64,000 nucleotides of DNA from Saprospiraceae bacterium (GCA_020850225.1 JADZFD010000032.1:124001-188000); one strand, 5' to 3'. Counted from the stretch's first letter, positions 15,681 through 63,100 are shown. Notes: a model not told the origin generated them from the letters alone. Translations and numbers: made by a program.

Positions 15681-16694
15681 TTAGTTTACATTGCCCATTT
15701 TCAGAATATCGATTTTCAGTTCTATAGTTTTACCCGGATCTTCAATGATTTCAAGGGGTTCCTGTAGCAACCGGTATGAAGGTACATTATTGGGAAATTT
15801 GTTTAAAACTCCCAAAATGACTCTTTTCAGGATCGTCAAATCTGATGCGGATATGAAGTCGTCTCCATTAACATTTGCTGTGATAAGTTGAACCGGATTA
15901 GTAAAAATATCCAATCCGAGTATGTGACGCTGTATTTTGACTACATCGAGTACAGATATTTTTTCTGAAAATGCTTCATCGTGACTTTCCATAACTATTA
16001 CGGGGTTCTTCATTTGCGGATAATTATCTGAAGGATAATCGAAAGTATAAATACCCTGAACATTTTTCCTGATTTCCAATCTCGGAGAACCTGCACTTTG
16101 GGGCTTTAAAAAGAAGTTGATTTTCAAATCATAGGGATTACCTGTTACAGGATCTATAGCTGAAAATGTATATTTGGTTGAAATTTGTGATTTTTTGCTT
16201 CTTGCAATGGTGATAGCATTATCCAGATTGTTGAAAAAAACAGGATATTGCATGGTTTTATCCGGGGCAATGACTACAAATGATGGTGTGCCATACCAAG
16301 GGCCATACAACCCATCTTTAAATTCATAGGACAGTGACAGAGCGCCTCCGTCCACACTGATTCCTTTCATCGTCTGGTTATACGTTTGTTCGAAAGCGAG
16401 AACTTCCGGGTTAAAATCACCTGGTATAGTAGTGATACTGAAAAATTCGACGTCCTGATTACCTTCGCCATACTCTATGTATTTCTGTTGAAAATAAGGC
16501 GCATTGGCTATACATGGCGGACACGTAGTGAAGAAGAATTTTATTACAACTATCTTATTTTTATTTAAATAGTCATCGTAGAGCTTGTGCTGCTGGCCAG
16601 TCACATCTGTAACTGTAAAGTCATGCAATGTCTGTGTATATGTCTGGTAAGTACAGAACATACATATTGCAAAAATCAATATTTTAGTCTTCAT
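15681..16694 (-). CDS. secreted redoxin with C-terminal dockerin-like domain
   Basis: This 337-residue protein has a signal peptide (residues 1-20, ending around TYQTYTQT) and a thioredoxin/TlpA-like domain at about 22-165. The active-site motif is CPPC (C58-C61) in FFFTTCPPCIANAPYFQQKY. A linker of about 80 residues follows. Residues about 245-300 are dockerin-like: SVLDVVKIQRHILGLD, then a calcium-loop-like ANVNGDDFISASDL helix. The protein stops right after KMGNVN, which aligns with the KIGDVN motif behind the dockerins of the two giant proteins in this window. It has no cohesin-like part and no T9SS tail, so it is probably periplasmic or surface-tethered through a partner. The redox role is inferred from the CPPC motif. 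Confidence 0.82.
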   Translation of the reverse strand: MKTKILIFAICMFCTYQTYTQTLHDFTVTDVTGQQHKLYDDYLNKNKIVVIKFFFTTCPPCIANAPYFQQKYIEYGEGNQDVEFFSITTIPGDFNPEVLAFEQTYNQTMKGISVDGGALSLSYEFKDGLYGPWYGTPSFVVIAPDKTMQYPVFFNNLDNAITIARSKKSQISTKYTFSAIDPVTGNPYDLKINFFLKPQSAGSPRLEIRKNVQGIYTFDYPSDNYPQMKNPVIVMESHDEAFSEKISVLDVVKIQRHILGLDIFTNPVQLITANVNGDDFISASDLTILKRVILGVLNKFPNNVPSYRLLQEPLEIIEDPGKTIELKIDILKMGNVN

Positions 16695-37472: not shown

Positions 37473-40400
37473 ATGAATCTCAACACGTACCCGAATTTTA
37501 AAACAAAAATGGATTTATTTTTAAATAAATCATATGTGTTTTTAATGTCAGGATTCAAATCCGCAATTGATTTTAAATCAAAGGTATTTTGGCTACCTGT
37601 ATTATTCTCTGTTTTTGGGATTTACAATACAGCAATCGGTCAAACTCTTAGTACTAATAACTTTGGCCCTACTTCTTTTTGCCCTGGTGCAAGTGTTTCG
37701 GTTGGATGGACGGGAACAGGCACCTTTAATACAGGAAATGAATTCAGAGTTCAGATAAGTAATGCAAGCGGAGTATTTCCAATAGATAATTCATCCAATG
37801 TTATAGGATTTGTTGCATCAACTGCACTGACGGGTACGGTTACAGCCACAATACCAGGAAGTCAGACAACAGGTACAGGATACAGAATGCGCGTAGTCTC
37901 AACAGATCCGGCTTTGAATTTTACTTCACCTTATGATGATAATGGAAACAATCTCACTGTTTTACCTTCAGCTATATTACCTGTTTATCCATTTGTTGCT
38001 TCACCGGTACAACGTTATAATATTGGAGCAACATTGACAGTAACTGCTAACTTACAATGTGTCACTATGAATACTGGAAATATTTTTTCCATCGAAATGA
38101 GTGATGCCACTGGAAGTTTTACTGCTACTGGTTATCCAAAAATAATTGGTATGGTAGGGTCAACAGGTGCAACTAATATAACAGGTACAATCCCAAGTGT
38201 TCCCTATGGAACAGGTTACAGATTGCGTATCAGATCATCCAGTCCGGTTATGCTTTCCGATATAAGTGCGCCTTTTACAATCAATGGAGCAAATTTATAT
38301 ACATCTCAATGCGTATGTAATAACGATCAGACACCTAATAATAATGATGGAACATACTCTGTTACACTTTATATTGCTAATCAGGATGGAACACCACTAC
38401 CTCCCGGTCTCAACTACAGGGTTATTCCTGCATCATCTACTGGTTTGTTGAATACTTCCAATGGACCTATAGGTAATGCTTTGTTTTCGTATTGTGATGG
38501 ACTTGGATGTCCTTCAGGTATAAGTTCAGGTCAGTATTATCTAAGAGTACATGTTATATATGCCGGAACATACAGTGCAGGAGTAGATGATCCGGATTCT
38601 GATTTTGATCCGGATTTATTCCTGAGTTCTACAAATTGCGGGACTAGTACACTCTATCCTGCATTACCTGTTTTTCCTGCAAATTTACAAGCATTAAATT
38701 GTCTTCATACAGGTACCAATACTTTTGGGAACTCTTCCATGGGCGTATTTTCAGAAACAAATACTAATACTGCACCAACTTTACCTGATGGATTCTATCA
38801 GACTGTGTCAGGTATAACAGGTGGAGATCTTACTATAGAAAACGGTGAAGTAAATGAAGCTGATAATGATCCTGTATTTGAATTATATCTGATCAGACAG
38901 GCAACGAATGGTTGTAAAGTGTCTGCCTATAAAGAATTTAAAGTATTTAATGCTATATCTGCTGAACTTGTGGATTTGCCTATATTCTGTAGAAATCCGA
39001 GAACTAAAGATTCAATTAGTTTAGATATAATGCTTGGTCCGGATAACTCAGGAGGTGGTACTTTCTCTATTCCTGGTGTCACTATAGTCAATGGAAAAGT
39101 TGAAGTTGGTAGTGGTTTCTGCTATCCTGTCACCTATTCAGTTGTTGACAGTTGTGGAACTACCCTTACAGATACTAAATATCTGCAAGTGACAATAAAG
39201 CCGGATCCCAAATTTGATATTGATGCTGGTCAACCTGCATCTCCGCAATGTGCAACTTCAACTACATCTATCAATATTTCCCGAACGAGTACGGGACCCA
39301 ATCCAGTATTTACAGTTACCACTAATAATGCATTATATCCCGCTTCAATTACCGGTAGCAATACAAATGCAACAGTTCATTTCCCAGCTCTTCCTGCCAA
39401 TGTTAATGTAAAGTATAACATATGTTTGACAGAATCCAATAATACACCTTCAGGATGTGGGGCAATTGCTCCACATCCTGAACCATGTGAGAATACGATT
39501 TGTAAATCTTATACAATATATAATGATGGCCGTAATTGTGGATCAGACAATCTTTTTGCCTCCCAGTGTGGTGATGATAAAATTGATGTATGCGGTGTAG
39601 ACACGTCTCCAAGTTTGGATTTTGGTTGTAGCTTCTTTACCATCCAGGGTCCGGATGTACTGACATCTGAAGTAGAGTTTGATAACGGAGTAGTCGGATG
39701 TGCAGACGAAATGGTTACTGGTACATTTAATGTTTCATTGTTCGGAATTGATGCCAATCAGGTAGCCGGTGGACAAAAATTGAAGTCATTCCCTGGTATG
39801 AATGTTATATGTTCTATTTTTGGATTTAAAATTTTTGGATGGCGGCCTTTAGGTAAATTATATAATTTATTAGGTTGTGACAGAACAATTGCACAATTTA
39901 TTTTAGGTCTAATCAGTAACCTTGCCGGTGGAGACGGAGGTGGCTATATTGTGATGGCTGATACAGATGGCGATGGTGCTTTCGATTACTTGATAGATGA
40001 TGGTCCGTTTCCGTCAGGTAATCAGACTTTCTCCATACCCAACAGAACCAAAGCAAATGGCTATATTACTGTCAGAGCTGTAGGAGGATGGGTGAATTCC
40101 CCATCTGATGTATGTGGTGATATGGGAATCGAAGAAATAAATCTGCTGGATTTATTGCCTATTGGAGCTATTCCGATAGTAGGAGCAGTAATTGAAGATA
40201 TCTTGGCATCTGCTGGTTGCGGTGTCAATATTGCATTTTCAGTTGATGCAACAGAATCTGTCAAAATTCTGAATAATGAGCCTCCAATTTTTGTTAGTTG
40301 CAACCCAAGTGGCTATGTTTTTGCCCAAACTCTAGATTGTGAAATTCCTGTTAACTGGTCAATCCCTGGAGTTGTCGATGGTTGTAGTAAGGAAGCTTTG

Positions 40401-43400
40401 GTTTACAGAGGTTATGTAGAAAATCCAACGACTGATGCTTCATTGTATGCAGGTACAATGCTCCCACCATCTTTTACGAGTATTACTGAACCGGGTATCT
40501 ATCAGATTGCAGGGCCGTTACCCGGATCTGTATTGACACCTGGTGACTATACAATAACTTATCAGGCTGTATCTTGCAATGGTATACCTTCTTTATGTAC
40601 CTTTGTATCCCGGGTAACTTCCGGAAATCCAATTTTGGAATGTCCACAGGATTTGACAGTATCAGCTGATATCGATAAGTGTACAGCGGTTGTTAATGGA
40701 TTGGCACCTTATCAGGGATTGGGTTGCTCCAGTATTATCAATTACAGCTTTACCAATCCTGTTTCAGGTACTCTGGTACAAACCAATAGTACAATAATTG
40801 GTACACATAATATACCTGATGGTTATGCATTTGAATTAGGAATAACTTCGATTACTTATACCATGCAGGTAGATATAAACGGAGATGGTGATTATGCAGA
40901 TACGAATGAAACACAGAATTGTTCTTTCAGTATATCAGTCGAAGATAATCAGCTTCCACATGCCGTATGCATCGATGTTTCATTACATCTCAATAATGAA
41001 GGTAATGGAACGGTGTATGCCTCCGATCTTCAGGATTCCATCTATGTCGATGGTGGAAGCAATGACAATTGTACAGGAGCATTATTATTGGAAATTTCAA
41101 GAGACAGAGTTAATTATTCTTCTTCATTGAATTTTGACTGTGCTGATAAAGGTCAGCAGGTTATACTGTTAAGAGTAACAGATGCAAGTGGCAATGTCAA
41201 TTCATGTAAGGCAGTGGTCAATGTTTTGGATTATTTCGAAGGATATAAGTTAGACCTGGATGTACCTGAAGTTTGTTTTGAACCATTCCAGGATACCTTT
41301 GACTTTTCTCCATATATCGTAATTGCTCAACCGGGAGGTAAAAATATCAGACATCAGGATGTGGGTACCCTGGGTCCGCAAATTGAAGGTCAGTTTGGTA
41401 TTTCAGCCTTCTTGCCGGATGCCGGTTCTACCAATGATCCGGGTACCATTACAGAAGATGGTATTTATACTTTGGGTACTGGTACCGGATGGATAACCAT
41501 TTCTTATGTTTTATCTATAGAAGGTCAGGTCAATCAGATTAATGATACAACAGCACTTAAAGGCTGTTTCAGAATGGTACACGATGTATTCAGGGTAGAA
41601 AAACTGGATCCTGTTTGGAAGGGTGGATTTATGTGTTGTGATCAGCTTCCTGTATGGTTAGGTGGAGCGAATTGGGATGGCAATGGTGCTCCTCCCATTC
41701 CTGCTGGTATGCTGAGTCTTACAGATATCAGAGGTAGCTATCCGGGTGATGTATACGGAGAATGGATAGGTCAGGGTGTTTCATTTGTCGATCCGGACGG
41801 TATCAAATACACTGGAGATGAATTCTTCCAGTTTGATCCGAATGGATTGGATGGTACCTATTCTCTTACATATGCTATTGGGGACGAACCTTGTGAATTC
41901 AAATATACGCAGGAGATACTGGTGACATGTCAGGATTTACACATTTCTATCAGTGATTACACTGTTTGCCCTGCCAATTGGGTAGATGAAAAACAGGTGA
42001 TTGTTAATTTGGATGATAAGGATTTAGTGGTTTCTACAACTGGATTTGATGCGATTGGAGCAGATGGCGGACATTATGCCGATGGTACACCAGTGCATGA
42101 TCTGGATTCAGTAGTTGTCCATGACGGACGAGTAGTCATACCTGGATTTTTTGCTCCTGCTGTCAGAAGTAAGGATTACGAAATATGTGTGACCACATTC
42201 CAGGTAACGCCTTTTGGATGTGCTGACGTATTCTGCTACACCATAACAGTTGAAGATTTGCTGGCACCTGAATTCCAGAATTGTCCAAGAGATCCGATTG
42301 TGGTGGATGCACCTGCAGGATGGTGTTCGTCTTTCGTTAACTTTGAACTACCATGGGCATCGGATAATTGTATGGGATTGAATGCCAGAATAGAAAGAGG
42401 TGATTCTACCGGATTAAATTCAGGCGACTTGTTCCCTGTAGGTTTGACGATTTTGTCGTACCTGGCAACTGATACTGTGGGAAATCAAAGTTATTGTGAA
42501 TTAAAAATAATCGTTAATGATTATCATACACCACCTTCTATTGAATGTCCTAAGAATGTGACACAGGTCAATGACCCTGAAAAGTGTGGTGCTATTGTTC
42601 ATAATATAGCTCCAGCAAAAGTAGAGGATAATTGCCCTGATAATCTTACGATCATTTATGAAACAAAAGATCCGGATGGTAAAGTTATTGCCTGTGGTTT
42701 TGAAGATGCCAGCGGAGATTTCTTCCCAGTAGGTACTTCAAAAGTGAAATATAGGGTAGAAGATCAGCCGTTGATACTGATTACTGAGATTGTACAGGAT
42801 GGCGTTACGACAGGCATGGAGATTACCAATTTTGGTCCTGCAGCTATGGATATTACTTGTAGCAGCTTTATACTTAAAGACCAGAATGGCAATGTACTTG
42901 AAACATATATGGTGCCTACTGCCAATAATAAGTCCACATACGGTAGTACACCGATATATCCACCGGATCCAATCATGTGGGTTGTTCCAAATCCGAATGT
43001 AATACCTGTTGGAGAAACATTTACACATACATTCAATACTAATATTCCGGCAGGACAGATTGCCAAATACTGCTTTACCTTCCTGAAGAGAGTCATAGAT
43101 GAAGCAACAATCAATGATCTCGTCAAAGGCAATGTTATACTGAGAAAAGATGTCTGCGACCACGATGTACAGTCCGATTTCAGAGCAGCTACTCCATGTG
43201 ATCCGGGAAGTTTCGGTACCCTGAACCCTGGTTTACCAACCATGACACCGAATGGCACAACAAGAGGACTTCAGAATTATGCCCCTTCGGTTGATGAATG
43301 TTCATTTACAGTCACGGTAAATGATCTTGAAGCACCGTATTGTATCAAACATGATTCTATTACGGTTATCAATAATATAGTACCAACACAGATAGGAGCC

Positions 43401-46400
43401 CAGACATGTGTTATATCCAAAGTGAGCATGCCTGCAGGAATAGTTAATGACGTTAATATACATAATCTTAAGATTACCATTCCAAATGCAGGAGCTATAA
43501 CAGCATATCTTAGAAGTCCCGAAGGTACGCGAATTAAGTTGTTTGATGAAGTATGTCTTAATCAACCTAATGTCAACATTAATCTGGATGAAACCATCGT
43601 TTGGACACCGGCACCAAGTGTGGTGAATGCATTGTGTAATCCTATGGGTCAAGGTGGTACATACAGACCGGAAGAATCATTCAAGGCATTTTATGGTGAA
43701 CAGGGTGGAGGAGACTGGTCCCTTGAATTGTTTACAACCGGTAATGTAACAGGAGTCATCACAAACTGGGAATTGGAGATTCTTTACCAATTGCCATATG
43801 ACCAGGGAGATGTTGTGCTTCATAATGCACCTGGTCAATGTGATACAACTTTCTCCTGGATTCATCCGATACTTAAAGATAACTGTTGCTTTGGAACCAT
43901 TACCGTTGATTATACCTTCACGAATGATGTGACCGGTGAAACTTCAAAAGAAACAGTTGTTATTCTAAATTCCAATGGTACTACTAATCTTCAGGGACTT
44001 AGAGAAACCAGAATATTTAAGGTGGGTGTTACCAAAATTGAGTATACATTAACTGATATTCATGGAAATCTTAATACCTGTGGATTTACTGTTACTGTCC
44101 TGGATACAGAAAAGCCTGTATTTACCATCGGATGTCCTGACAGAGTTATTAATTTGGGTCCGGGTGAATGTACCGGAAGACTGGATTTCTATACACCTCC
44201 TGCTACGGATAATTGTGGTATAGAAAAAACTGAATATTTCTTTGAAGATGGTACAATTGCAGACATTAGTCAGTTACCTATTGGTTCTTATATAATTGAA
44301 ATGCATGTGACAGATATCTATGGTAATGTAGGCATTTGTTCATTCACGGTGACTGTCAATGAGTATATTCCAACAAGTACAACGCTGGCATGTAATAATG
44401 AAGTAAATATTTCATTAGGTCCGGATTGTCAGGCTGTATTGAATGCTGACATGATACTTGAAGGATTTGATTACAGATGTTATGACAATTATTGTATCAA
44501 GATTGAAGATCTTTTTGGAATACCTCACGACAACCTGTTTACTCTGGCCGATGAAGGAAAACGATTTAAAGTTAGTATCAGCGATTGTTTGTCAGGCAAC
44601 CTGAATTCCTGTTGGGGTTATGTGAATATAGAGGAAAAACTTACTCCTGTCCTGAAATGCCCTGAAGACCTGACGGTAGCATGTAATTTTGATATAGAAG
44701 CAGTTGATTCTCTCGGACATTTGCTGACTGGAGAAGCCATACTTGAATCATGTGAAGTAAATGCAAAAATCGCATATCAGGACGAATGGACAACATTTGG
44801 TAACTGTGACAACCCGAGAGCATTGGTAAAAAGAACATGGACAGTAATAGATGATGAAGGAAGAAAGGCTGAATGTGTTCAGAATTTTACAATACGACCA
44901 CTTGACCTCAATGATGTTGTGTATCCTAAAGATATAGAATTTAATCAGGCTATAACATGTGCTGATATTATTAACAATCCACAACTGAAACATCCTGATT
45001 ATACAGGATGGCCATTGCTAAATGGTCTTAAGGTAAATAAGGCAGGAAGTCTGTGTATGGTAAGTCTGAATTATTCTGATGATAATTATGATATTTGTGA
45101 AGGAAGCTATGTAATTTTAAGAACCTGGAGGATATTTAATATGTGCTATCCTGTATCAGCAGACAATCCACGTTCTCATGTTCAGGTGATTAAAATACTG
45201 GATGTTATGGGGCCGAAAATCATAGATTGCCCTGCAGATATGACTGTATCTGTTGATCCGTGGAGTTGTAGAATCAATATCGAATTACCTCAGCCCGGAC
45301 AAGTACTGGATGCTTGCTCACCTGGTATTCAGTTCAAACAACTGATTTACGGAGGCGGAGAAATTAAGTCTGTAAAGGATTCAGTTGGTATCGTCCATGT
45401 ATTTGCCAATGAATTGTATAAAGGTGTTCATACTATCAAATATGTGTATAAGGATAAATGTGGTAATGAGTCAGTATGTAGCTTCAGAGTAACGGTCGTA
45501 GACCAGACAGCACCAGTAGCAATAGCCAAACAAAATATCGTGATTGGTCTGTCCAATGACGGTACAGGAAACGGAATAGCCAAATTGTTTGCACATCAGG
45601 TGAATAACGGATCCTATGACCAGTGTACACAGGTAAGACTTGAAATCCGAAGGTTAGACGGAGGTATTTGCAGCAATACAGGAGCTGATGGCAAACACAA
45701 TAACAACAGCACCTACAACAATCACAATGGACTGACATCCGCAACTCCAGGTGTAAGCTGGTTGCATCCGGACGATAGCGTAAACGATACGGATGGTGGT
45801 GAGTTTGTTAAATTCTGTTGTGAGGATATACCAGCCGGTGAAGCATTCGGACTTCATGATGTGGAAATGCGTGTTTGGGATGACGGTAATATGAACGGAA
45901 TCATCGGTGACAATCAGATTGTAAATGGTCTGAAAGACAATTATAATACTACATGGGCAACAATAAGGGTTGAGAATAAGATACCGCCTGTAATCGTTTG
46001 TCCACCGGATGTAACAGTTACATGTGATATGGATATCGAATTGAGTATAGGTAAGGAAGTAGCAACAGACACAGTAGACCTGACGATGACAGGTTTACCA
46101 AACAGCATAGAGTTGTGTACTAATCTGTTGATTACCTATTCAGATCAGGGTAATCTGGATGCTTGTGGAAAAGGTGTTGTTACAAGAACATTTAAGGTAA
46201 AGAAAGGCAGTATTGAATCCAGTTGTACACAAAAGATAACAATCAACTATCTGGATGTGCCATTCACTGTGACATTTGCACAAAACAATGGAGTAACAGA
46301 TTGGGATAAGTGTAATTTTGGATTGGCAGATGCCAGAGACGCTAATAATCCTAAGATTAAAAAACCTGTAGTGAATTTCGGACAGTGTGATATTGTAGGA

Positions 46401-48632
46401 GAAACGGTCAAAATTGATACCTTCCTGTTTGAAGACGGAGCATGTAAGAAGTGGAAGGTGTCATATACATACAAAAGTTGGTGTTCAGGTGATGAGATCG
46501 GACCATTTGTACATTACTATGCATTTAAAGACGATATAGCACCGGTATTAACATGCAATGACCAGATGTTTGCTGCTGTTCCTAATCCAGCTAACCCACA
46601 GGGATACTGTGAAGGAAGTGTAGTGTTGGAATCAAGTGCAGGCGATGCACTTGTATGCGCAGAGGAGAGCTGGATTAAGTGGCAGATGTTTTTTGATGGA
46701 TGGGCAAATGGCACAACGGACAGATTGGGATCCAGTTTTGTTAATAAGGCATGGAAAGACAGATGGGAACGTGTTGACAAGACAATAAACGGAGTACCTA
46801 ATCCGGTATGGGCAGCCTTGCAGGCACAACACCAGGGAACGGTACTTGCCGATCCGGTGTATGTTACCTATGTCAAGCCAACAAAAGCAAGTGGAGAAGG
46901 AGTTAAAATGCCTGCATTCACCCTGCCATCAGAGAACATTCAACACAAGGTGTTATGGAAAGTTACCGATGGATGTGGCAATGTGGATCAGTGTCAGAGT
47001 ACAGTTATGGTAGTGGATAAGAAAGCACCTACACCGTATTGTGTACACCTGAGTACAGCGATTATGCAGACGACACCTAAGATGGTAGAGTTATGGGCAA
47101 AAGACTTTGACAAGGGATCATTTGACAATTGTTCACCTCAGACTAAGTTATATTTTACCTTTGATGAGGTTTCACCTTTATACAGCAAGCTTAACGAAGA
47201 GCATTACTTTAAGGCTGGTACAGGAGGAAGTGTAGTGGCGACTAAAGCAGAGTATGAATCCGGTAAAGCACAGAAATGGATACCTTCATTGAGAAGTTCC
47301 GGTAAGGTATGGACGACATGCGGTGATTTTACAGTTAAAATAAGCGTGTGGGATGAAGCATGGAATACAGATTTCTGCGAAGCAAACCTGAAAGTGATTG
47401 GATGCGGTGCCAACCTCATCGTATCTGGTCATGTAGCGACTGCCACCGGCAATAATGTAAAGGATGCAATGGTAATATTTGAAAGCAACCTTCCTGAATA
47501 TCCTAAGCAATTTGTTACAGATGTGAATGGAGATTACAGTATGGAAGTACAGGCAGATCTGGATTATACGGTGCACACCATTAAGAATGATGACTATATC
47601 AATGGAGTAAGTACCTTGGATATTGTATTGATTCAGCGCCATATTCTGGATCTGGAAGCATTTACGGATCCGTACAATCTGGTGGCAGCAGATGCCAATA
47701 ATGATAAATACGTTACTGCGTCTGACTTATCAGAAATACGTAAACTTATACTGGGAATAACGCAATCATTCAAAAATGATAGCTGGAGATTCCCTGTAAA
47801 ACATCAGACTATGAATATGCAGCAGATATTCCCTTATAAGGAACATTATAATTATGTTCAACTTGGAGAACATAAAGTGAAACAGGATTTTGTTGCTGTA
47901 AAAATTGGAGATGTAAATTCCAGTGCAAAACTGGACGTTAACAGTATCTCTACCGAGCCACGTACTGCTGCCATTTTAACGATGGAAACAGATGTACAGA
48001 ATTACAATAAAGGAGATATCGTAACTGTACCGTTTACTGCTGCAGAAGATCTGAACATCTCAGGATTCCAGTTGACATTGAATACGGGTAATCTTGAATT
48101 TGAAGAAATCCAATCAGGAGCCCTGAATATAGATGCAAGTCAGACGGGTGTATTTGCTAATCAGGACAAGATTACAATGAGTTATGCCGGTAAATCAACC
48201 GAAAAGATTAGCAAAGGTGAAGTGTTGTTTACAATCCGATTTAAAGCAAAGGATTACGGAAGTACTGAAGAAGCATTGTCATTCAATTCAGATATCACGA
48301 AAGCTGAAATGTATGATGCAGAATTGAAAGTAGGAAAAGTGGAACTGAGAATGAAGCACGCAGATGGAAATGCAATTCAGTTGTATCAGAATGAACCAAA
48401 CCCATTTATTGGTCAGACATCAATAAGTTATTATCTTCCTGAAGCATCTGAAGTATCCATGACTATCACTGATGTAACGGGTAAGGTAATTAAGCAGTAT
48501 GATATCACAGGAAATAAAGGAATGAATACAATCCAGGTATCCAGACGAGACCTGGGCGCATCCGGTATATTATTATATACTATGAAATGTGGTGAGTTTT
48601 CTGCGACAAGAAAAATGATTATCGTAGAATAA
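37473..48632 (+). CDS. giant HYR-repeat T9SS surface protein with dockerin-like and cohesin-like domains
   Basis: This is a 3719-residue secreted protein. A signal peptide ends near residue 57 (FSVFGIYNTAIG); Met1, Met13 and Met25 are all possible starts. Two tandem Ig-like repeats follow (about 58-170 and 172-275). From about 935 on come many HYR-type modules, each starting like PPVIVCPPDVTV or APVLTCNDQ. Between them lie a lamin-tail-like segment (about 1766-1870) and a proprotein-convertase P-domain-like segment (about 1970-2108). The C-terminal cassette holds a carboxypeptidase-regulatory-like domain (about 3310-3375), a dockerin-like domain (about 3377-3440, STLDIVLIQRHIL and ADANNDKYVTASDL) and KIGDVN. 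A cohesin-like domain (about 3500-3628) and a T9SS type A tail (about 3634-3719, NEPNPFIGQTSISYYLPE) complete it. An adhesive or scaffold role at the cell surface is inferred. Confidence 0.9.
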   Translation: MNLNTYPNFKTKMDLFLNKSYVFLMSGFKSAIDFKSKVFWLPVLFSVFGIYNTAIGQTLSTNNFGPTSFCPGASVSVGWTGTGTFNTGNEFRVQISNASGVFPIDNSSNVIGFVASTALTGTVTATIPGSQTTGTGYRMRVVSTDPALNFTSPYDDNGNNLTVLPSAILPVYPFVASPVQRYNIGATLTVTANLQCVTMNTGNIFSIEMSDATGSFTATGYPKIIGMVGSTGATNITGTIPSVPYGTGYRLRIRSSSPVMLSDISAPFTINGANLYTSQCVCNNDQTPNNNDGTYSVTLYIANQDGTPLPPGLNYRVIPASSTGLLNTSNGPIGNALFSYCDGLGCPSGISSGQYYLRVHVIYAGTYSAGVDDPDSDFDPDLFLSSTNCGTSTLYPALPVFPANLQALNCLHTGTNTFGNSSMGVFSETNTNTAPTLPDGFYQTVSGITGGDLTIENGEVNEADNDPVFELYLIRQATNGCKVSAYKEFKVFNAISAELVDLPIFCRNPRTKDSISLDIMLGPDNSGGGTFSIPGVTIVNGKVEVGSGFCYPVTYSVVDSCGTTLTDTKYLQVTIKPDPKFDIDAGQPASPQCATSTTSINISRTSTGPNPVFTVTTNNALYPASITGSNTNATVHFPALPANVNVKYNICLTESNNTPSGCGAIAPHPEPCENTICKSYTIYNDGRNCGSDNLFASQCGDDKIDVCGVDTSPSLDFGCSFFTIQGPDVLTSEVEFDNGVVGCADEMVTGTFNVSLFGIDANQVAGGQKLKSFPGMNVICSIFGFKIFGWRPLGKLYNLLGCDRTIAQFILGLISNLAGGDGGGYIVMADTDGDGAFDYLIDDGPFPSGNQTFSIPNRTKANGYITVRAVGGWVNSPSDVCGDMGIEEINLLDLLPIGAIPIVGAVIEDILASAGCGVNIAFSVDATESVKILNNEPPIFVSCNPSGYVFAQTLDCEIPVNWSIPGVVDGCSKEALVYRGYVENPTTDASLYAGTMLPPSFTSITEPGIYQIAGPLPGSVLTPGDYTITYQAVSCNGIPSLCTFVSRVTSGNPILECPQDLTVSADIDKCTAVVNGLAPYQGLGCSSIINYSFTNPVSGTLVQTNSTIIGTHNIPDGYAFELGITSITYTMQVDINGDGDYADTNETQNCSFSISVEDNQLPHAVCIDVSLHLNNEGNGTVYASDLQDSIYVDGGSNDNCTGALLLEISRDRVNYSSSLNFDCADKGQQVILLRVTDASGNVNSCKAVVNVLDYFEGYKLDLDVPEVCFEPFQDTFDFSPYIVIAQPGGKNIRHQDVGTLGPQIEGQFGISAFLPDAGSTNDPGTITEDGIYTLGTGTGWITISYVLSIEGQVNQINDTTALKGCFRMVHDVFRVEKLDPVWKGGFMCCDQLPVWLGGANWDGNGAPPIPAGMLSLTDIRGSYPGDVYGEWIGQGVSFVDPDGIKYTGDEFFQFDPNGLDGTYSLTYAIGDEPCEFKYTQEILVTCQDLHISISDYTVCPANWVDEKQVIVNLDDKDLVVSTTGFDAIGADGGHYADGTPVHDLDSVVVHDGRVVIPGFFAPAVRSKDYEICVTTFQVTPFGCADVFCYTITVEDLLAPEFQNCPRDPIVVDAPAGWCSSFVNFELPWASDNCMGLNARIERGDSTGLNSGDLFPVGLTILSYLATDTVGNQSYCELKIIVNDYHTPPSIECPKNVTQVNDPEKCGAIVHNIAPAKVEDNCPDNLTIIYETKDPDGKVIACGFEDASGDFFPVGTSKVKYRVEDQPLILITEIVQDGVTTGMEITNFGPAAMDITCSSFILKDQNGNVLETYMVPTANNKSTYGSTPIYPPDPIMWVVPNPNVIPVGETFTHTFNTNIPAGQIAKYCFTFLKRVIDEATINDLVKGNVILRKDVCDHDVQSDFRAATPCDPGSFGTLNPGLPTMTPNGTTRGLQNYAPSVDECSFTVTVNDLEAPYCIKHDSITVINNIVPTQIGAQTCVISKVSMPAGIVNDVNIHNLKITIPNAGAITAYLRSPEGTRIKLFDEVCLNQPNVNINLDETIVWTPAPSVVNALCNPMGQGGTYRPEESFKAFYGEQGGGDWSLELFTTGNVTGVITNWELEILYQLPYDQGDVVLHNAPGQCDTTFSWIHPILKDNCCFGTITVDYTFTNDVTGETSKETVVILNSNGTTNLQGLRETRIFKVGVTKIEYTLTDIHGNLNTCGFTVTVLDTEKPVFTIGCPDRVINLGPGECTGRLDFYTPPATDNCGIEKTEYFFEDGTIADISQLPIGSYIIEMHVTDIYGNVGICSFTVTVNEYIPTSTTLACNNEVNISLGPDCQAVLNADMILEGFDYRCYDNYCIKIEDLFGIPHDNLFTLADEGKRFKVSISDCLSGNLNSCWGYVNIEEKLTPVLKCPEDLTVACNFDIEAVDSLGHLLTGEAILESCEVNAKIAYQDEWTTFGNCDNPRALVKRTWTVIDDEGRKAECVQNFTIRPLDLNDVVYPKDIEFNQAITCADIINNPQLKHPDYTGWPLLNGLKVNKAGSLCMVSLNYSDDNYDICEGSYVILRTWRIFNMCYPVSADNPRSHVQVIKILDVMGPKIIDCPADMTVSVDPWSCRINIELPQPGQVLDACSPGIQFKQLIYGGGEIKSVKDSVGIVHVFANELYKGVHTIKYVYKDKCGNESVCSFRVTVVDQTAPVAIAKQNIVIGLSNDGTGNGIAKLFAHQVNNGSYDQCTQVRLEIRRLDGGICSNTGADGKHNNNSTYNNHNGLTSATPGVSWLHPDDSVNDTDGGEFVKFCCEDIPAGEAFGLHDVEMRVWDDGNMNGIIGDNQIVNGLKDNYNTTWATIRVENKIPPVIVCPPDVTVTCDMDIELSIGKEVATDTVDLTMTGLPNSIELCTNLLITYSDQGNLDACGKGVVTRTFKVKKGSIESSCTQKITINYLDVPFTVTFAQNNGVTDWDKCNFGLADARDANNPKIKKPVVNFGQCDIVGETVKIDTFLFEDGACKKWKVSYTYKSWCSGDEIGPFVHYYAFKDDIAPVLTCNDQMFAAVPNPANPQGYCEGSVVLESSAGDALVCAEESWIKWQMFFDGWANGTTDRLGSSFVNKAWKDRWERVDKTINGVPNPVWAALQAQHQGTVLADPVYVTYVKPTKASGEGVKMPAFTLPSENIQHKVLWKVTDGCGNVDQCQSTVMVVDKKAPTPYCVHLSTAIMQTTPKMVELWAKDFDKGSFDNCSPQTKLYFTFDEVSPLYSKLNEEHYFKAGTGGSVVATKAEYESGKAQKWIPSLRSSGKVWTTCGDFTVKISVWDEAWNTDFCEANLKVIGCGANLIVSGHVATATGNNVKDAMVIFESNLPEYPKQFVTDVNGDYSMEVQADLDYTVHTIKNDDYINGVSTLDIVLIQRHILDLEAFTDPYNLVAADANNDKYVTASDLSEIRKLILGITQSFKNDSWRFPVKHQTMNMQQIFPYKEHYNYVQLGEHKVKQDFVAVKIGDVNSSAKLDVNSISTEPRTAAILTMETDVQNYNKGDIVTVPFTAAEDLNISGFQLTLNTGNLEFEEIQSGALNIDASQTGVFANQDKITMSYAGKSTEKISKGEVLFTIRFKAKDYGSTEEALSFNSDITKAEMYDAELKVGKVELRMKHADGNAIQLYQNEPNPFIGQTSISYYLPEASEVSMTITDVTGKVIKQYDITGNKGMNTIQVSRRDLGASGILLYTMKCGEFSATRKMIIVE

Positions 48633-60122: not shown

Positions 60123-63100
60123 ATGAAACAAGTATTTTTTACATTATTATTGCTCACAGGCTTAGTTGTTTGGGTTGCACCCATTCAGCATAATAATGTA
60201 GTAGTGTTAAGTCCATTGAGTATACATGTTTTTGCCGGCAACGATCGTACAGATTGTTTGGGTCAAAGTCTGCTGATACAGGAACTTCAGGCAACAATCA
60301 ATGGTGATGTAAGCGATGGAGATTGGATCAGTTTTGGTGATGGCAGGTTTCAACCGGGTAATTTACTGACAGTAAGGTATAGTGTGGCACAGGCACAGCA
60401 AATCAGGTATGTTCCCGGAAGTAATGATATATCACTCGGTTTTTACAGACTAATGTTATTGTCTGATGCGCCCGTAGGTAATCCGCAGGAAAGAAAGACA
60501 GATGAAGTTAAAATCAGTTTCCAGACTGCACCTCCTTTATTTTGCTCAAATAATTTTACGATCGCACTGAATGAGTCATGTAGTCAGAAGGTGGATGTGA
60601 CCATGCTGCAATCCAATCCTGTTCCGCCTTACACCAATTATATCGTTGAGCTATACACAAAAGACGGTAAAATAATACCCGATAATATTTTGACCAAAGA
60701 TCATATTGGTAAAGAAATTTCTTATAAGTTGGGACATCAGTGTACATCCAATGTATGTTACGGGTCATTTTTTGTTAAAGATTTCTTTCCGCCTGTTTTT
60801 AAGTGTAGCAATGATACCGTATTCTGTAATGCATCTGTTGTACCTGAAAGCCTTGGGTTTCCTATACCGTCAGGTGCCTGGGTAGATACAATTATAAATA
60901 AAAAGTACTTAGTCAAAAATTGGGATAAATGTTCAGATGTAACTCTGGAATATACAGATCAGGAATTGAAACCTGATTGTTTCGGGCAGGCTGACAGGAT
61001 TATTACCCGTAAATGGAAGGCAAATGATGTCAGTGGTAATACATCTGAGTGTACAGAAATCATTTTTATCAAGAGAATGCCGCTGGATTCAGTGGTTTTT
61101 CCTGTTAATTTTGACGGCTTACAGGCACCCTTCTTCGAATGCGGTGATACTTTTCCAGTATTGACAAATGGTAATCCTTCACCTGATACTACAGGGATTC
61201 CGGGTATTGGATTTTGCGGACACCTTCAGTATCAGTACAGCGATATTGTTTTCGCAGAATGTGGCAACAGTTTTAAAATAGCCAGAAACTGGTTCGTTAT
61301 AGATTGGTGTACTTCATCCAGCAGAAGCATCAATCAATTGATTTATATCAAAGATACCAGAGCTCCTGAAATAGTAAGTCAGGATACCATTCATCTGGTA
61401 ACTGATCCATATTCATGTAATACTGCACAAATCGCTGTGCCTGACTTAATACTTGCGACAGATTGCTCTGAATTTACAACAACATATAAATTAAAGCGAT
61501 TATCAGGTGAAAATTACAACGACAAAATAGTGTTCGTTAATAATAAATATTATTTCAAATCACTTCCACAAGGTGTTTATAATTTGGAATATATCAGCCA
61601 GGATCTTTGTAATAATACATCAGTAGATACTAGTATAGTTATAGTTTCAGACAAAACAGCACCTTATACAGTTTGTAAGGAACATACTGCTGTGACCCTT
61701 GACAATACCGGAAACGGGCGTGTTTTTGCAGCATCTTTTGACAACGGTAGCTCTGATAATTGTGCAATCGATAATTTTAAGGTTAGAAGAATGCAAGCCG
61801 CTTGTGGAAGAAATGATGATTGGGCAGATTATGTAGATTTTTGCTGTGCTGATATCGGTACTACACAAATGGTAGTTTTTCAGGTGACGGACGCTTCAGG
61901 AAACCGTAATACCTGTATGGTGGAAGTGAATGTTGCAGATAAATTAAAACCGACGATTACATGTCCGCCAGATATCACGTTGGCTTGTTCGGATGATTAC
62001 GATCCGTCTGACATGAGTCGGTTTGGTACAGTTGTTACTACTGCGGCCGAACAAAAGAATATTATAATAAATAATTTTTATCACAAAGGTGTAGTAGGTA
62101 AAGATGGTCTGGCAAAGGATAATTGTAGTGTAGCTGTCAAATCCCGCACAAGCATGGATATAGCTTGTCATACAGGCTTTATTTACCGGACTTTTGTAGC
62201 TACAGATGCGAGTGGTAATTCAGATTCCTGTGTTCAGACGATTACGATTTTAAATCCGGATCCATTTGATGGCTCGGATATAACATGGCCGGATAATTAC
62301 AGCGGAAATGGTTGTAAATTGCTGGATGCAGACCCCAAAGTGACAGGTTATCCTGAATATAAAAATACAGCTTGTAGCAATGTAACGCACAGTTATACTG
62401 ATCAGCATTTCTATATGGCGGACAGTGCCTGTGTAAAAATATTCAGAACATGGTCAGTGATGGACTGGTGTCAGTTTGATCAATCGAATCCTAAGGAAGG
62501 AATATATTCTAAAATTCAGGTAATTAAATTGAGCAACAATCAAAGTCCTGAAATAATATCTTCATGTCAGGATACGGTATACTGCTCTTTTGTTCTGGAT
62601 TGCGGACTTACAAATATAATATTAAGTGCCTCGGCTTCCGATGATTGTACTGCCTCTGATTACTTGTCATGGACGTATGAACTTGATTTGAACAATGATA
62701 ATACTTACGATATTCAGGGAAATGCATCGCGTTTTGAAGTTGATATCCCGATGGGAAGCCATAGTGTCAGATGGACAGTTACTGATCAGTGTGGTAACTA
62801 TACACAATGTGTAAGGAGATTTTCAGTTGAGGACTGTAAAAAACCAACTCCTTACTGTATCAGTTACCTGACCAAATCATTGGATGCTGTAACCGGTGAA
62901 CTTGAAATTTCAGCCATAGATTTTGATAAAGGCAGTTCTGACAATTGTACTGTTTATGATGATTTAGTATTTACATTTGACAGAGCATTTCCCGTACATT
63001 CAAAACTGGATTCTATACATTATTTTAAAGGAGACGGATTTAATGCAAATTTGTCTGATTATCTGTCCGGACAAGCACAACGATGGGATCCTGTTAAAAA

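Follow-up and report, generated by a model that had tools for sequence, protein, structure and literature searches.

The window analysed in this study, a stretch of 64,000 nucleotides from the genome of a Saprospiraceae bacterium, contains an intact open reading frame (ORF) on the plus strand (37473-48632), which encodes a putatively secreted protein of 3719 residues. According to its Pfam and NCBIfam matches, five HYR stretches and a match to the P-domain precede a C-terminal cassette that ends in a T9SS type A tail. The cassette, all of it on the plus strand, consists of a CarboxypepD_reg-like Ig domain (residues 3314-3370, positions 47412-47582), a dockerin core (residues 3372-3430, 47586-47762), a conserved segment of about 60 residues that ends in the motif KIGDVN (SWRF ... 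FVAVKIGDVN, 47763-47939, with KIGDVN itself at 47901-47918), a cohesin domain (residues 3497-3628, 47961-48356) and the T9SS type A sorting domain (residues 3642-3717, 48396-48623). Residues of the cassette are also numbered separately below, and adding 3306 to such a number gives the residue number in the whole protein. The CarboxypepD_reg-like domain was assigned from a sub-threshold Pfam match and from the strands in the AlphaFold2 (AF2) model, and 50 of 76 relatives match the same family. The start of the ORF is uncertain (37473-37650): the probable signal peptide, KVFWLPVLFSVFGIYNTAIGQ, only starts some 37 residues past the first ATG, so that translation may actually be initiated at an internal ATG.

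The sorting domain matches TIGR04183 with 31.5 bits (cut-off 23), so that the protein shows both properties of a T9SS type A cargo, i.e. a C-terminal sorting domain and a T9SS encoded in the same genome. Since this genome encodes 122 type A tails as well as a full SprA homologue (1926.9 bits), export of the protein by the T9SS is credible from the sequence.

The cohesin domain was recognized by several independent comparisons. The Pfam family Cohesin (PF00963) matches residues 3507-3607 with 30.6-37.3 bits, above the curated cut-off of 24.1, and a profile of the cohesin part searched against the PDB retrieved cellulosomal cohesins (best E=1e-6, 3l8q), with no non-cohesin match at an E-value below 0.1. 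The AF2 model, built with 76 relatives, shows, besides the dockerin helices, about nine strands that form a beta domain at cassette residues 191-322, and the best Foldseek matches of this domain in the PDB were solved cohesins, including those of CipA, C. perfringens, Archaeoglobus and Ruminococcus; the TM-scores of 0.4-0.6 are normalized to the target, with a query of two domains. Residues 3497-3628 are thus modelled as a true cohesin with the jelly-roll beta-sandwich fold, and the profile and Foldseek matches in the PDB rule out both a chance similarity and a look-alike fold. An earlier note on this DNA had described dockerin-like and cohesin-like modules on one T9SS-exported polypeptide, a description with which Pfam, AF2, Foldseek and TIGR04183 all agree; it had also proposed to compare the cohesin region with known families and to abandon the idea of assembly if a non-cohesin fold emerged, and what emerged were cohesins by both profile and structure.

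The dockerin core scores close to the threshold of its family. Dockerin_1 matches residues 3379-3427 with 19.6-23.2 bits (cut-off 22.9), the lowest value being obtained when the whole 3719-residue protein was scanned, and with 27.8 bits in the scan of the genome. Dockerin_1 was matched at E<=0.01 by 74 of the 76 relatives, and a profile of the dockerin part matched type I dockerins in the PDB. Compared with the type I pattern of two calcium-binding F-hand loops (D-x-[DN]-x-[DN]), loop 2 is canonical in the 76-sequence alignment (D101, N/D103, D/S105 and D112), while the sequence of loop 1 is [ND]-x-[DN]-x-[LI]-N-G-V-S-T-L-D, in which the calcium position 5 is mostly hydrophobic and the N-G is shifted. 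The segment that follows the core is modelled with a pLDDT of about 95 and is coupled to the core through the residue pairs Y69-F127, T63-Q139, A102-P148, I81-V175 and K65-V170. Furthermore, K171, G173 and D174 of the KIGDVN motif are invariant in 76/76 sequences, and GDVN resembles the first residues of a type I dockerin loop, so that it might complement the unusual first calcium site. The motif had been taken for a linker; the invariant residues and the couplings to the core rule this out, and the segment of about 60 residues is part of an extended dockerin unit.

The cassette is not a one-off. By alignment, about 15-16 ORFs of the genome share this C-terminal block with its order of modules unchanged, and the genome contains 18 matches to the profile of dockerin plus segment and 20 matches to Pfam Dockerin_1. 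The 30 kb that follow downstream on this contig (up to 198.7 kb) contain a tandem run of three more cassette genes, the first of them starting at 60123 on the plus strand. A search of species-representative genomes returned 462 relatives, and nearly all of the 79 that were kept belong, by record name, to Saprospiraceae, Saprospirales, Chitinophagales, Bacteroidetes/Bacteroidota, or Aureispira/Portibacter. Of the 25 genomes sampled within the family, 22 contain the cassette, which was further found in one other family among 41 genomes across the order and in four of 148 genomes across the phylum, three of these four being from the same family; in these samples it is therefore family-wide and almost absent elsewhere. 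As paralogues and relatives show the same order and the same spacing of the modules, chance can be excluded as the origin of the combination. In order to avoid the bias of selecting whole cassettes, 80 loci were also collected by a search with dockerin plus segment only, which favours better-scoring dockerins and under-represents weak members. The cohesin follows in frame in 77 of them, two end just past the segment, and one has no detectable cohesin. In this genome and four others, a cohesin detectable by profile follows 41 of 54 dockerins, and at least some of the remainder have diverged cohesins. The linkage of dockerin and cohesin in cis is thus near-obligate.

The model also places the two modules relative to each other. 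For dockerin, segment and cohesin (267 residues) AF2 gave a pLDDT of 94.2 and a pTM of 0.87, and for the whole cassette 93.6 and 0.75, with dips only at two inter-domain loops and at the N-terminal end. By our own calculation from the pTM formula, which is not an output of the tool, two independent bodies of 125 and 137 residues would give about 0.5, and a pTM of 0.87 implies a mean inter-domain error near 3 Angstrom. From this difference, the dockerin unit and the cohesin are predicted to pack together within one chain. Against pairing in cis it may be said that a pair able to bind in trans would likewise be folded in cis when a monomer is modelled.

The conservation of the cohesin points to the same contact. 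Outward-pointing residues of its 8-3-6-5 sheet, assigned from the hydropathy pattern and not from coordinates, show stronger conservation than their counterparts on the opposite sheet (mean entropy 1.76 vs 2.63 bits, p=0.016), and G225, Q227, T229, S264, E306 and Y308 on this face are nearly invariant. The 8-3-6-5 sheet is the known dockerin-binding face. In a global alignment G225 and Q227 fall on N37 and D39 of 1OHZ, with an hhalign probability of only 1.2 and with E306 gapped; hhalign of the cohesin profile against 1OHZ gave a weak local match; the register of strand 3 comes from the global alignment, and that of strand 8 is ambiguous. In 1OHZ, the Ser/Thr motif of the dockerin is reported to contact N37 and D39 (PMC5772552). 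An invariant patch confined to cis pairs was considered and partly rejected: free cohesins of the same genomes also commonly have Q227, N251 and S264, the Q, N and S/W positions being shared, whereas the E306-x-Y308 motif is typical of cassette cohesins and mostly missing in free ones. Only E-x-Y, and often G, separate the two groups.

Mean-field direct coupling analysis of 169 sequences returned pairs that are consistent with neighbouring strands and helices, and no clear canonical dockerin-cohesin face. The coupling between dockerin and cohesin residues exceeded that of re-paired controls, although the inter-domain values are inflated by shared ancestry, and the strongest pairs, Q145-F237 and P135-L235, do not point to the canonical face.

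One may ask whether the two folds persist simply as stable elements of a stalk, one Ig-like and one calcium-binding, between which there is no specific interface. Such an inert spacer would suit the HYR/Ig-rich ectodomains, and would account for the paralogues L015, L024 and L025, which have degraded cohesins or altered dockerin helices, and for L028, which has lost the cohesin altogether. On the other hand, the dockerin is 63% identical across the set, far above the neighbouring regions, the conserved face of the cohesin is the known binding face, and AF2 places the two modules confidently, so that we consider this explanation unlikely. From the conservation of the dockerin and of the 8-3-6-5 face relative to the opposite face, both modules look functional.

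Taken together, the most economical reading is that dockerin and cohesin form a fixed C-terminal cassette of T9SS type A surface proteins, which is closed in cis as a stem, and we regard the chances of this reading as about evenly balanced. The dockerin core and the segment ending in KIGDVN would fold as one calcium-binding unit, which would dock onto the cohesin next to it in its own chain; the result would be a closed, rigid and probably calcium-dependent stem that joins the HYR/Ig-rich ectodomain to the T9SS tail, the latter presumably being removed or modified on export. We infer that the predicted contact is a dockerin-cohesin interface, dependent on calcium and closed in vivo.

The earlier note had suggested instead that the protein could self-polymerize or cross-link on the surface if both modules are functional and compatible; the dockerin of one molecule would then be inserted into the cohesin of the next, head to tail. 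Both modules are present and probably compatible, and closed modules can swap domains at high surface density. However, a flexible loop between the dockerin unit and the cohesin (cassette residues 181-190, pLDDT about 75) allows closure in cis, which is favoured by the local concentration, and nothing positive points to chains. While the identities of the modules hold, the assembly idea is weakened, since the pairing is fixed in cis, the packing (pTM 0.87) is predicted within one chain, and a closed chain does not polymerize by default; we consider head-to-tail chains possible but improbable.

Cohesin-dockerin pairs are known as intermolecular connectors, and non-cellulosomal modules of this kind also occur in C. 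perfringens glycosidases and in Archaeoglobus. The C. perfringens glycosidase cohesins (2w1n, 2jh2 and 2vo8) are among the closest solved folds; they are, however, borne by enzymes of a Gram-positive organism that have no T9SS tail. With the cellulosomal type I dockerins and type I/II cohesins (1OHZ, 3l8q and 4uyp) the cassette shares the fold, the second calcium loop and profile similarity, but its first calcium loop is altered, a long C-terminal segment belongs to the dockerin unit, and the partner lies in cis. The genome does encode a multi-cohesin protein of the kind expected of a cellulosomal scaffoldin, i.e. a three-cohesin type B protein (G000:C7). Nevertheless, we found no glycoside hydrolase domain in the 3719-residue protein or in eight other cassette proteins scanned, and membership in a cellulosome was rejected as no plant-polysaccharide enzymes were found on the cassette proteins scanned. 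The premise that cohesin and dockerin always reside on separate partners proved too strong, as ANME archaea encode non-cellulosomal proteins in which a single dockerin is accompanied by up to five cohesins (PMC9012536). In these proteins, too, the dockerin shares an extracellular polypeptide with one or more cohesins in a setting other than cellulose degradation, but with a variable architecture and in an S-layer context (PMC9012536), whereas a fixed 1:1 cassette directly precedes a T9SS type A tail here. The cassette belongs with the known non-cellulosomal cohesin/dockerin biology, in a form that differs from the published cases; a literature search, with most subscription journals outside its reach, found no paper on this arrangement in Saprospiraceae.

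The main rival of the closed cis unit is docking onto a multi-cohesin scaffold. The three-cohesin protein of this genome (1078 residues, L111:2600-5833) has its cohesins at the N-terminus, followed by an SprB repeat and a T9SS type B tail, and a PorP/SprF gene comes next. Counting this gene, four genomes were inspected that encode scaffold-like proteins (the others at L108:3056-6112, L109:3309-6377 and L110:1359-6521), with three to five tandem N-terminal cohesins, SprB repeats, a CHU_C/TIGR04131 type B tail and a PorP/SprF gene next to them, the tail and PorP/SprF being supported by profile matches in three of these genomes. Most of the family genomes examined contain similar multi-cohesin genes, with tails checked by profile in only three. 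Of the 13 multi-cohesin genes, at least eight have a cassette dockerin on the same strand no more than about 10 kb away, where about 0.4 would be expected (p=4e-10, or 1e-8 when two genomes of one genus are counted once); the limit was set after the distances had been seen, the count being seven of 13 at a strict 10 kb, and in nine genomes neighbours were counted only among the matches listed, which would hide neighbours.

Since multi-cohesin proteins are encoded beside cassette genes in most sampled genomes, a role in trans is possible. The partners of the cassette dockerins might be the tandem cohesins of a T9SS type B protein with SprB repeats, held at the surface as a scaffold together with its PorP/SprF partner; a surface complex free of cellulases would result, in which the cohesin in cis would either cap the dockerin or lengthen the chain. 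In addition to the scaffold-like genes and their clustering, this possibility draws on a dockerin protein that has no cohesin (see below) and on Ca. Stygibacter (Cloacimonadota), for which a putative CTD-anchored scaffoldin system with dockerin enzymes has been proposed (PMC8542988). That system likewise has a tandem-cohesin protein with a surface-attachment CTD as well as dockerin proteins, but its dockerins are on GH/peptidase enzymes and its scaffold carries CBMs (PMC8542988), whereas the dockerin proteins here are HYR/Ig-rich with a cohesin of their own, and the scaffold carries SprB repeats. Docking in trans leaves unexplained why nearly every dockerin has its own cohesin; furthermore, the multi-cohesin gene of this genome has no cassette neighbour, and gene clustering is not binding. 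We therefore hold the whole of this reading to be possible but doubtful. Equally tentative is its extension to the family, i.e. that Saprospiraceae might possess an enzyme-free T9SS surface system, in which a type B, SprB-type tandem-cohesin scaffold with a PorP/SprF partner would take a dozen or more type A adhesins, their dockerins pre-capped by the cis cohesin and exchanged onto the scaffold.

If closure in cis is true, the cassette would be a self-closing version of the cohesin-dockerin pair, which could serve as a calcium-dependent stalk or a capped connector, in an abundant and little-studied family, and the nearby multi-cohesin type B scaffold would make a non-cellulosomal surface assembly directly testable.

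Several dockerins of these genomes depart from the cassette. On the minus strand of the window (15681-16694), a thioredoxin/AhpC-TSA-like protein carries a dockerin of the same family and ends at ...KMGNVN, without a cohesin or a T9SS tail, and putative dockerin-only ORFs of like size (356 and 357 residues) occur in two other genomes of the family, one of them with an in-frame TAG. Two loci of the present genome, L018 and L020 (G000:C63 and C101), encode different, more canonical two-loop dockerins with both loops DxNxDG-like, and the dockerin of L020 ends its protein without a T9SS tail.
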